Shown here one piece after another: positions 18,801-24,800 of a stretch of DNA of 64,000 nucleotides (its first letter is position 1; each line of letters starts with the position of its first letter). The position numbers were made by a program, and so were the translations under genes. The DNA lies in the NCBI GenBank assembly GCA_029964075.1, contig CM057142.1:29824392-29888391 (forward strand), given 5' to 3'. The notes beneath the pieces were generated by a model. It worked only from the letters and a program-made list of their open reading frames with translations. It ran no database searches and was not told the DNA's origin. The stretch is from Patiria pectinifera (lineage: Eukaryota; Echinodermata; Asteroidea; Valvatida; Asterinidae).

Positions 18801-21800
18801 GACCAGACTGAGATTGGAGAGAATGGTGTGACGCTAAGCGGGGGACAGAAGGCTAGGGTTGCCCTGGCCAGGGCTGTTTATCAGGTCAGTGTGCATGAAC
18901 AGAAGATGGCAATTTGTATCCACTCAGTTGGCAAGATATATTGCTTGTGTGCTGTTAATGTTATGCACGTGTATGGCCACACATGTTTACGTTACATATC
19001 TAGTGTGGACATTCCTTTGTTTTCGTGTAGTTAAGAGAAATCTGTGAAAAAACTTGTTTGACTGAAAGTGTGAAAACTCTTTCAACCCAGTGTTGAGTGT
19101 TTTTCTTCATTTTGCTAGAGGTCAACCTAACCCCAAAAATGCCTCTAAACCTGTTTTCCAGAGAGGGGGAAACGTGTGGACATGGGCAAGTCCACACAAC
19201 GTATCTGAAACCTGGTTTATGTGGACATCTTTTGTTCAGAAGTCCACACAGTGAATGTAGTGCTTGTACTGTAAAATGTAGTACACATTAGGAATATTCC
19301 TCTGAATGTGCAATATTGCTCACAATCTTTGGTATTCAGCTTTCTTTGATGTATCTCTCTGTTTGTCACCACAGAGGGGTACTTAGTCTGCAAAAGTAGG
19401 AATTTGCCTCGTGCCAATTTTCATTTTCAGGCCTGCAAAATTACAGTAGCAATTGTTCAATGTGAATGCACTTCAGTTCAACTTTAAGCATTGCTCATAT
19501 GTCCAACTTTCTCCTTCTCTTGCCTCACTGAATCTAACTACAGCCAACACAGTATCTGTTGCATTGTTTTATCAGAGTATCGGTCTTGTTCTACCTCGTG
19601 GTCAGTAATCCTGCTTGGACCAATCTGAGTGCATGAAATCACTGTACTCTTAGAAATGTCCTAGTACTCATGTGCAAGCATTGTGCAAGCTATTGTGGAT
19701 GAAAACCATCATCGGGCAGGTTTTTTTTTTTTTTTTTACCCTAACTCCCTAGACCTTTATGCTAGGATGTAGCCTCAATCCTGCAAAATCCTCCAATGAG
19801 CATGGAAAATAGCATAGCCTCAATCCTGCAAATTCCTCCATTATTTCTTGAATATAATCCGTGGAGGGGTGACCACTGCCTGAATCCTGCAAAATCCTGC
19901 GGCAGTGACTGTCAATATGCTGAGGCTTGGCCAGTGGCATCCTGGAGCAATGGAGGATTTCAAGCATAATCTAGGCCTATATTTATGCATGGCTGAGCAA
20001 AAAGGGCATCCTACGAAATCAGTAATGCAAACTTTTTCATGTAACCTCAATCCTTAAAATTCCTCCACTTTGGCAAAGAGGATATTGAAGGATTCAGGGC
20101 GGTTAGGGTTAATAGCTGGCATAATGCTCCTGCCATGACAAGGACATCTACACAAATGTACCAAGATCAAACACTTGTATTCAACCGAGTCATATACTTT
20201 GGTTGTTCAGATCATTTGGAAGGATACCAAGAGAATATGCAAAGGAATAGCCTAACACTAATCTTTTCAGCTTTACAAATCTCTCATTTCGTTTGGCAGG
20301 ATAAAGACCTGTATCTGCTGGACGATCCAATGGCTGCGGTCGATGCACACGTAGGAGCGCACATCTTTTCCCAGTGCATCATGGGACTGCTGAGAAACAA
20401 GACCAGAATCCTTTGCACCCACCACACCAAGTTCCTTCAGGAGGCCGACCTGGTCGTAGTGATGGAAGGCGGAGAAATTACCAATGTTGGCAAGTACAGA
20501 TGTAAACGCTTTGGCAGGAATTGTGTTGCATTTCAGTGGTTTAACCCTTACCCCCAAAGGGCTGTTTGGGGGTCAAGTACATATACTACATGTGCTGTGC
20601 ACACTTGTATGGAAAGAAATTCATACTACAGGTTACTCCTCAGTAGTATTTTGCAGCATTGGGGGCGGTTAGGGTTAACAACAAATTACATGCATTTTGT
20701 TGCAAGTCTACTTACATGCATACAAATACCATGTACTATTTCATTAGCATTTTATGTACTGTACAGAGTCCATCATTCCAACTATATATATAAAAAGTTA
20801 TTGTAAATGTTTCATCCCCATAACTACTAGAGGCGTACTCCAACACCCCATCTATTTGTATTGTGTGACTTCAGTGTTTGAATCAGATGGTGTATGATGA
20901 GAATGCCTAATTACGAAAAAGTATTTTTTTTTCAGTTACGTCAAGAGTTCGTTTCATATCCTCAAAGGAAACAAAATTTAAATCAGGAAATTTCCCATGG
21001 CAATTTTTTAATGGAAAGTCTCCTTAAAATTAGTTCTCACCAAGTTGGATTTTAAAAATGAAATGCAGTTCTTAATTCCTTAAATGTACCCTTGAGGAGA
21101 CATGTTTTCATCATTAGTTATTCCTTAGGGAGTTAACAGACATTAGGGAGACATTTCAATTTCACAACTCTTATTTAGAGGCAAATTTTCACCGACTACG
21201 CTAGATCGATTGGTCGTGGACCAAAACACAAATGTACCAAAATTCGGTGAGTAAGATTAGGGAAAATTGGGGTAAAGCAGGCATTAAAGTTTGAAAAATT
21301 GTGTGCACAACTCTATGTGGGAATGTAAGTGAAAATGTAAATTTAAGTAGTGCTGACCAGTTATTGCTTTGCCAAATCGGTAACTGGTGAGCACTACTTA
21401 AATTTGCACTTTCATTTACTTCTTCATTAGTGCTACGCAGCACCCCATTTTGTTATCTATGTGGGAATGTCTCCCCGAGGAACAATGTCCCGTAATTGCA
21501 ATATCAATTATCATAATTCTGTCATCAGAGAAATTGCCAATGAATATCCTCAACTTTCTTAATGACAGGACATCCCTCGTTGATTCTGAAGAACAAAGAT
21601 CTGCTGACCACGTTGCAGTACGACGACCCAGAGGACTCCAACAAAGATGGCACACAAAACCCAGAAGAGTGGGAAGAGAAAAAGAATGAAGAGGAGGATG
21701 GCAAGCTGGTCGAAGAGGAGGAGCAAGACATGGGCGTGGTCAAGCTGAAGGTCTATAAGGCGTACTGGAATGCCGTGGGTTGCGTCCTGGCATCCAGTGT

Positions 21801-24800
21801 CCTGATTGCCATGTTCCTGATGCAAGGTGAGTCAATGAGACATCTGGCACTTTATTGTGGGTACCATCGTGTATCATGTGCATTTGACTGATATTATTGC
21901 ATGTATTTTGGACTTGTGTTTGATGATATCCATGAAATACTACAACATGACAATCAGCGTTGTGATTGCTATGTATGTATGTTTCTACTGCGAGGTGAGT
22001 TGCTGAGGTGTTGACGCTGTGTGTTGTGTTGCGGTTTAACCAGAGGTACCATGTACATTGCTCATGCTTTGACTGACTTTCTAAACTTGTATTGGATGAT
22101 ATCCTTGAAAAACACAACGTAGCATTCAGTGTTGTGGTTTCTACATGTACATGTATGTTCCTACTGCAAGGTGAGTTGCTGAGGTGTTGCCGCTGTGTGG
22201 TGTGTTGCGATATAACCAGAGGTACCATGTACATTGCTCATGCTTTGACTGACTTTCTAAACTTGTATTGGATGATATCCTTGAAAAACACAACGTAGCA
22301 TTCAGTGTTGTGGTTTCTACATGTACATGTATGTTCCTACTGCAAGGTGAGTTGCTGAGGTGTTGCCGCTGTGTGGTGTGTTGCGATATAACCTGAGGTA
22401 CCATGTACATTGCTCATGCTTTGACTGACTTTCTAAACTTGTATTGATGATATCCTTGAAAAACACAACGTAGCATTCAGTGTTGTGGTTTCTACATGTA
22501 CATGTATGTTCCTACTGCAAGGTGAGTTGCTGAGGTGTTGCCGCTGTGTGGTGTGTTGCGATATAACCTGAGGTACCATGTACATTGCTCATGCTTTGAC
22601 TGACTTTCTAAACTTGTATTGGATGATATCCTTGAAAAACACAACGTAGCATTCAGTGTTGTGGTTTCAACATGTACATGTATGTTCCTACTGCAAGGTG
22701 AGTTGCTGAGGTGTTGCTGCTGTGTGGTGTGTTGCGGTATAACCAGAGGTACCATGTACATTGCTCATGCTTTGACTGACATTCTAAACTTGTATTGGAT
22801 GATATCCATGAAAAACACAACGTAGCATTCAGTGTTGTGGTTTCTACGTGTATGTTCCTACTGCAAGTTGAGTTGCTGAGGTGTTGAGGCTGTGTGGTGT
22901 GTTGCGGTATAACCAGAGGTACCATGTACATTGCTCATGCTTTGACTGACATTCTAAACTTGTATTGGATGATATCCATGAAAAACACAACGTAGCATTC
23001 AGTGTTGTGGTTTCTACGTGTATGTTCCTACTGCAAGGTGAGTTGCTGAGGTGTTGCCGCTGTGTGGTGTGTTGCGGTATAACCAGAGGTACCATGTACA
23101 TTGCTCATGCTTTGACTGACATTCTAAACTTGTATTGGATGATATCCATGAAAAACACAACGTAGCATTCAGTGTTGTGGTTTCTACATGCATGTTCCTA
23201 CTGCAAGGTGAGTTGCTGAGGTTTTGCCGCTGTGTGGTTTGTTGTGGTACAATGTATAACCAACGGTACCATGTACATTGCTCATGCTTTGACTGACATT
23301 CTAAACTTGTATTGGATGATATCTGTGAAAAACACAATTTAGCATTCAGTGTTGTGGTTTCTACATGTATGTTTCTACTGCGAGGTGAGTTGCTGAGGTG
23401 TTGCTGCTGTGTGTTGTGTTGCGGTATAACCAGAAATACCATGTACATTGCTCATGCTTTGACTGACATTCTAAACTTGTATTGGATGATATCCATGAAA
23501 AACACAACGTAGCATTCAGTGTTGTGGTTTCTACATGTACATGTATGTTCCTACTGCAAGGTGAGTTGCTGAGGTGTTGCCACTGTGTGGTGTGTTGCGG
23601 TATAACCAGAGGTACCATGTACATTGCTCATGCTTTGACTGACATTCTAAACTTGTATTGGATGATATCCGTGAAAAACACAACGTAGCATTCAGTGTTG
23701 TGGTTTCTACGTGTTCCTACTGCAAGGTGAGTTGCTGAGGTGTTGCCGCTGTGTGGTGTGTTGCGGTGTAACCAGAGGTACCATGTACATTGCTCATGCT
23801 TTGACTGACATTCTAATCTTGTATTGGATGATATCCATTATAAAACGTAACATTCAGTGTTGTGATGGCTGTGTCCCAAAATGAAAGTTGAGTTGCTGAC
23901 ATGCTGACACTTAATTTTGTGTTGGGCCACAACTATCAGTCCCTGTACATTACTCATACCCTCAAACATTGTGTCAAAGGTCTAAACAAATTGAACACTG
24001 ATGAATACGTAACAAATTGGGACTCCAATAACGTCACAACCAGAAAGTCTTGATCAGTCAATAAAACACAAACGTCTGTTCACCAAAACCTGTTCATCTT
24101 ACCTATCCATCATTGTCTTACAACTAATGAGTAATGAGATATGTCTTGTCTATACAGCGTGTGTCAATAAAAACGCAGGATTAGAAACAAAAATATTAAG
24201 AATATAAACCACCCCTATTCATCATAATGTTAACCCTCTTTTCAAAGTACCTTTCCTTCTCTTCACTGTGCTTTTTATCCCATCTCATTTGGACAATCCT
24301 GTCCAGAGATAGAGTACATTGAAGAAGGGTTATAAATTCCAGCTGGTCTGATTTGTGAAATCACACATACCTAATTAAAGGTTTGAATTCAGTACAGGTG
24401 AAAGTATTTGTGGATCACAAAGAAGGACATGTGTGGCAGGATTAGGCTTACATAATCCTTTAGTCCACAATCGATGTTATTTGATATGTCAGAGACGACA
24501 TTCATGATGCTTTGAAACAATGATAGTCCAGTTATTAAATTTAAGTGATACTTATCATCAGTTGTTTCAAAGAAAGTTTTGTTCTGGTTTAATTGTCTTC
24601 AATGCATACCTGCATTGTACATAACTGGTCGTTGTGTTAAGGTAATTGAATCAGACCAACCCGCTTCAGAAGGGCTTCACAAAACTTGTCATAACTTTTG
24701 AACCAAAAGTCCAAACTCCACTAAACAAAAATCTTGTCAAAGATGAAATTATGGACAATCAAATCCTTATCAAATTAGGCACACCAGTAGCATAATTTTC

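Follow-up and report, generated by a model that had tools for sequence, protein, structure and literature searches.

Two human genes, CBS and ABCA7, carry tandem repeats that include the 5' splice site of an exon, and the 31-bp variable number tandem repeat (VNTR) of CBS was reportedly first described by Lievers et al. in 2001. Here, we analyze an array of similar build in the sea star Patiria pectinifera, located in a 64,000-nt stretch of contig CM057142.1 (hereafter, the window; C14:29824392-29888391 in our numbering of the 613.5 Mb genome that was searched), where intron 9 of an ABCC-type transporter gene contains about 12 copies of its own exon 9/intron 9 junction. The CBS repeat, c.1444_1467+7(16_21), is present in 16-21 copies (PMC2630376), and its coordinates, by our count, span 24 exonic and 7 intronic nucleotides. 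Like the units of the exon 9 array, each CBS repeat holds the end of an exon and the start of its donor; unlike them, it has a 31-bp unit of invariable length and is polymorphic in people (PMC2630376), whereas the units described here measure 161-177 bp, include about 130 nt of intron each and come from one assembly. In ABCA7, a VNTR with a 25-bp unit in intron 18 begins with the GT of the exon 18 donor; a frameshifting isoform amounting to about 2% uses the donor of the next unit, independently of VNTR length, which does correlate with exon 19 skipping and lower expression (PMC5954066). This VNTR resembles the exon 9 array in lying directly 3' of an exon, including the donor and residing in an ABC transporter gene, albeit of another family. 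It differs in its 25-bp unit, its C-rich region and, as described in that source, the lack of exonic sequence, and in that splicing, expression and disease association have been measured for ABCA7 (PMC5954066), whereas the array described here is known from sequence alone.

Two other systems are related more distantly. The CBS 844ins68 allele, a 68-bp duplication of the intron 7/exon 8 junction with two competing sites, likewise duplicates a splice junction but consists of a single extra copy, with the distal site used (PMC2630376). Tandem duplication of AGGT-containing sequence is a published route of intron gain (the Rogers model; ATP2A1, potato RdRp) that also copies splice signals (PMC4974935), whereas here the copies stay within one intron and no new exon or intron is predicted. 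Literature searches on minisatellites at splice sites led to CBS and ABCA7, and the reference list of PMC5188458 added no further case. By these likenesses, we regard the exon 9 array as the same kind of element as the human CBS and ABCA7 VNTRs, whose units it exceeds in length by a factor of five to seven.

The best explanation of the array, to which we assign a probability of about 80%, is a tandem duplication across the exon 9 junction that was subsequently amplified and homogenized, the decoy donors being a rarely used, near-neutral by-product. The duplicated segment, about 168 bp long, would have started 37 nt before the end of exon 9 and stopped about 130 nt into intron 9, thereby placing a second copy of the junction in the intron, where, free of coding constraint, it would have changed; the changed copy would then have been expanded to about 12 copies and homogenized by unequal exchange or conversion, both edges being left divergent. 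The true donor would still end exon 9, and the copies would be spliced out with the intron. We infer, together with this mechanism of amplification, that the ten intact decoy donors are most likely rarely used, that a transcript using one would acquire a premature stop and be degraded, as a predicted target of nonsense-mediated decay, and that the array is near-neutral. The principal features are as follows.

21569-21826, + strand: 258-nt exon 9 of the ABCC-type transporter gene, from which the exonic part of the unit derives (open frame; paralogue alignment; PDB match of exons 9 and 10 to ABCC5/MRP chains)
21824-21832, + strand: true 5' splice site of exon 9, AAG/GTGAGT (frame; paralogue; exon 10 phase)
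21790-21956, + strand: founder copy, comprising the last 37 nt of the exon, the donor and about 130 nt of intron (alignments; right end placed from the period; 21833-21911 weak alone)
21957-23960, + strand: junction-derived tandem array of about 12 copies, the last one degenerate (Tandem Repeats Finder, donor spacing and unit alignment)
24922-25036, + strand: exon 10, which continues exon 9 in phase (frame and phase)

The anatomy of the array, its homology and polarity, the retention of donors and the stop codon can all be read from the DNA. Tandem Repeats Finder (TRF) reports an array at 21912-23864 with a period of 176, 11.3 copies and 92% matches, and the 12 intervals from the true donor through the 12 copied donor positions measure 161-177 bp (mean, 172), in agreement with the monomer of about 172 bp and the copy number of about 12 given in a preliminary description of this locus. 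The array, thus, is a minisatellite of head-to-tail, near-identical units that contain the donor of the adjacent exon; the 37 exonic nucleotides per unit make it CBS-like when the comparison is anchored on the donor, the unanchored comparison being marginal. The core units are 84-100% alike, with adjacent pairs slightly more similar than non-neighbors (95.7% vs 94.1%), whereas the edge copies have diverged from the core: the founder matches it at 53-58%, in an alignment that included non-homologous exon upstream, and the far-end copy at 67-72%. Divergent edges with an alike core are the pattern left by unequal exchange. Later homogenization, as proposed, is likely, and the founder is indeed divergent, as had been claimed, but the far-end copy is divergent as well. 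The peptide MFLLQGE, previously attributed to ten units, is encoded exactly in 7 of the 12 copies. A genome-wide search with one unit found at least 11 places, all inside the array, so that a dispersed element was rejected. A coding repeat was rejected as well, given that 10 of the 12 units have lengths not divisible by three and that the longest listed + strand open reading frame (ORF) is 73 aa; ORFs of up to 165 aa run across the units on the - strand. Separately, the junction between copies 0 and 1 (21980-22030) and that between copies 8 and 9 (23370-23420) have the rare variants TTTCTACTGCGAG and TGTGTGTTGTG in common, which suggests that a block of about 1390 bp was duplicated or converted within the array.

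The derivation of the unit from the junction is most apparent when the exon and the units are compared in register. Anchored on the donor, the exonic match reaches 37 nt into exon 9 with a score of 37. In 300 shuffles with the final AAG left in place, the score never rose above 31; among 15 other exon ends of the gene, the best score was 15, and among 80 AG/GTGAG sites taken from the window, the paralogue region and 14 random pieces of the genome, the best was 20. A joint alignment of 21787-21994 with a unit is colinear, with 150 of 193 aligned bases identical and a score of 141, compared with a shuffle mean of 36 (standard deviation, 6.7; maximum, 58). The similarity of the 21796-21956 region to the units, on which the preliminary description staked its case, is therefore real, as is the inclusion in the unit of the donor followed by about 130 bp of intron. 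The unit does begin inside exon 9, as had been proposed, but its exonic part extends for about 37 nt rather than about 31. Farther up exon 9 than about 37 nt, no homology was seen (1462 of 2000 shuffles as good).

The exons in question belong to a + strand gene in the first 40 kb of the window that encodes a C-type ABC transporter. Its 18 coding exons that can be paired with those of a paralogue (window positions 2293-40004) follow an order identical to that in the paralogue, which occupies about 8.79-8.81 Mb of the same chromosome. In a Pfam scan of six exon pieces, PF00005 scored above the curated cut-off in two and PF00664 in one, with no match in the other three; exons 9 and 10 joined matched, among PDB sequences, ABCC5 best and then other ABCC proteins. 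The domains and the structural matches jointly mark the gene as an ABCC-type transporter. The name ABCC10 (MRP7) is tentative, being suggested by a resemblance at LMQASRN..DWWLS; no chain of that name occurs among the 42 PDB sequences matched by exons 9 and 10. The position of the exon 9/intron 9 junction, between 21826 and 21827, appears well supported by the reading frame, by an exon 10 that begins in the matching phase and by the layout of the paralogue: the final G of exon 9 opens a codon that is completed by exon 10 at 24922 (CT TCA AGG), and exon 9 of the paralogue has an identical end and phase. Directly 5' of exon 9, there appears to be a GC-AG intron conserved with the paralogue: exon 8 has an apparent GC donor, TTG/GCAAGT at 20487-20495, placed from the frame and common to both genes.

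Edge divergence does not by itself identify the founder, and the comparison with the paralogue therefore matters. Exon 9 differs from the typical unit at seven ungapped sites; at six of these, the paralogue carries the base found in the exon, and at the remaining one that of the unit. Because the paralogue sides with exon 9, the units derive from the exon rather than the reverse. The comparison thus supports the preliminary description in tracing the units to the end of exon 9. Intron 9 is 3095 nt long here and 697 nt in the paralogue, in which no unit was detectable when the whole intron was compared (87 of 500 shuffles as good); an initial comparison had given short, weak matches (best E, 0.47), and the first 90 nt after the paralogue donor scored at most 15 against the unit, compared with a shuffle maximum of 35. 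The paralogue equivalent of 21789-21911 scored 41 (shuffle mean, 23.7; maximum, 47), a value that the common exon end suffices to explain. The array, then, is probably younger than the split of the paralogues, unless the paralogue lost it. The extra length of intron 9 is accounted for by the array together with a 699-bp element at 24153-24851 of the same intron. This element has 30-bp inverted ends with one mismatch, lies beside a TA and has a 97% identical copy about 8.6 kb upstream of the first coding exon of the paralogue; its features suggest a young non-autonomous DNA transposon.

Several observations weigh against this interpretation. When the last 60 nt of the exon are compared with two units without the anchor and without the donor, 48 of 2000 and 42 of 2000 shuffles are as good; this exon-only match is marginal, and the proof therefore depends on register with the donor. 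Taken by themselves, the 79 nt that follow GTGAGT (21833-21911) give a weak match (109 of 1000 shuffles did equally well), and the alignment requires an insertion of 2 to 12 nt within the exon-like part of the units. The copy nearest exon 9 has the exon state at only two of the seven diagnostic sites and the unit state at five, so that the steps leading from the founder to the array are not preserved. The survival of 10 of 12 donors would fit weak selection as well as homogenization. Finally, the length of the array comes from one assembly of one species and may be an assembly value.

The copied donors are listed below, as placed by donor listing and scoring.

21992-22000, + strand: decoy donor 1, GAG/GTGAGT
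22168-22176, + strand: decoy donor 2, AAG/GTGAGT
22344-22352, + strand: decoy donor 3, AAG/GTGAGT
22519-22527, + strand: decoy donor 4, AAG/GTGAGT
22695-22703, + strand: decoy donor 5, AAG/GTGAGT
22865-22873, + strand: lost donor 6, AAG/TTGAGT
23035-23043, + strand: decoy donor 7, AAG/GTGAGT
23205-23213, + strand: decoy donor 8, AAG/GTGAGT
23382-23390, + strand: decoy donor 9, GAG/GTGAGT
23558-23566, + strand: decoy donor 10, AAG/GTGAGT
23724-23732, + strand: decoy donor 11, AAG/GTGAGT
23885-23893, + strand: lost donor 12, in the degenerate edge copy, AAG/TTGAGT

Eight of the 12 copies are identical to the true 9-mer, two read GAG/GTGAGT and two have lost the GT. These sites were scored with a matrix built from 32 of the 34 donors of the two paralogues (exon 5 was dropped in both genes), and acceptors with a matrix from 26 of 34 (exons 2, 5, 6 and 8 were left out); the sites were placed by eye from the paralogue alignments and, the two genes being related, are not independent. 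At 11.55, the exon 9 donor and the eight copies identical to it equal the highest-scoring real donors (median of real donors, 8.18); the GAG/GTGAGT copies reach 6.69 and the lost copies 5.32. A ladder of strong donor sequences does, accordingly, follow the true donor; GTGAGT is retained in ten copies, as had been noted, but equality with the real donor extends to eight of the ten.

Whether such a ladder affects splicing is the question on which the leading alternative turns. Under this explanation, the array would be a regulatory splice brake, with decoys competing with the true donor and copy number setting the share of stop-containing or retained transcripts. Apart from the scores of the eight strongest decoys, it draws on the density of strong donors in intron 9, where nine sites (eight of them array donors) score at or above the real median, that is, 2.93 per kb, compared with 20 sites in 28,685 nt, or 0.70 per kb, in the other intron stretches examined. 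It also draws on the first in-frame stop past the exon 9 donor:

21889-21891, + strand: first in-frame stop (TGA) past the exon 9 donor (frame read-through of exon 9)

This TGA lies 103 nt before the first decoy and inside every decoy-extended exon 9, so that each use of a decoy would meet it; because of the 50-55 nt rule of nonsense-mediated decay, the extended RNA is a predicted decay target. Against a brake, the donors are unremarkable in conservation. Among the 11 core units, the donor 9-mer has three changes in nine columns (0.33 vs 0.56 per column overall), and, of the 120 windows of nine columns that can be drawn, 62% show no more change than this; the donor, therefore, does not stand out, and no clear sign of selection on it is visible in this test. 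The paralogue, moreover, has no detectable unit. The human precedent cuts both ways: in ABCA7, splicing does use the donor of a neighboring VNTR unit, and exon 19 skipping and lower expression go along with VNTR length, but the isoform retaining a unit amounts to about 2% and is independent of length (PMC5954066). Taken together, a regulatory brake appears unlikely. Its more specific version, a splice rheostat set by copy number, in which the ten decoys (eight of consensus strength) would pull U1 away from the true donor to yield stop-containing isoforms and array length would tune the output of one of the two ABCC paralogues, is very unlikely. A splice-tuning role for the array is possible but unsupported, and none of the functional roles entertained in the preliminary description is supported, considering the conservation of the donors, the stop in every decoy extension and the similar ladders found elsewhere in the genome. 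The array is most likely a near-neutral intronic minisatellite with, at most, leaky use of decoys.

These other ladders also bear on a second, highly improbable explanation, namely, that the array is an unrelated intronic minisatellite whose likeness to exon 9 reflects chance convergence on the donor consensus. Three AGGTRAGT motifs in a row at 150-180 bp spacing were found 218 times on both strands of the genome, compared with 78 in a reversed control, and other spacings gave 386 vs 112, 318 vs 110 and 385 vs 35; these counts are hits rather than arrays, and a few long arrays dominate them. Among the listed matches of the 218, at least 13 separate loci, including the exon 9 array, were counted by hand, and 5 of 14 random 10-kb pieces contained a tandem array with a period of at least 20 and at least three copies. 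Donor-bearing repeats, then, do occur elsewhere in the genome, and the exonic part of the match is marginal when unanchored. However, the anchored score exceeds the maxima of all three controls, and the homology of the founder runs on through the intron; chance similarity was rejected on the anchored test, though the unanchored exon-only test is marginal. Among the other ladders, the locus G000:C10:16583209-16597501 holds a long array of units of about 196 bp with AGGTRAGT on the minus strand in consecutive units, and further ladders lie at C2:20690827, C7:3282061, C10:7260433 and C14:54628720.

Even less probable is stepwise excision, in which GT-to-AG units would be removed from intron 9 one after another. 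GT and AG are present in every unit bounded by intact donors, each such unit beginning with GT and ending with AG; the AGGT duplication model offers a published framework (PMC4974935), and weak acceptors do occur in these genes, the score of the best unit AG (4.97) being higher than that of 5 among the 26 real ones. However, the AG sites of units with an intact GT score 1.25-4.97 compared with a median of 7.10 for the real acceptors, a value attained nowhere in 21850-24900, and intron 9 is only 3.1 kb long. The weak acceptors of the units thus make stepwise excision improbable. An intron gained between exon segments was not found either: the copies lie within a single intron that is common to the paralogue. 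The last alternative, that the array originated in the intron or at another site and then converted the end of exon 9, has a negligible probability and was rejected: the stretch ATGTTCCT..TGCAAGGTGAGT is common to the exon and the units, but the paralogue, lacking a detectable unit, has the exon version at six of the seven sites.

Elsewhere in the window, at 50477-55260, there are two related 68-bp tandem arrays (52686-53308 and 53408-55260 by TRF); by eye, their consensus units are reverse complements of each other, so that the arrays face each other.

The exon 9 array is an ordinary process with an attractive outcome. With ten near-identical donors located 168 to 1900 nt downstream of a working donor, it provides a natural case for the choice among equal 5' splice sites, and it indicates that splice-junction minisatellites arise in another animal genome besides the human one, with far longer units.

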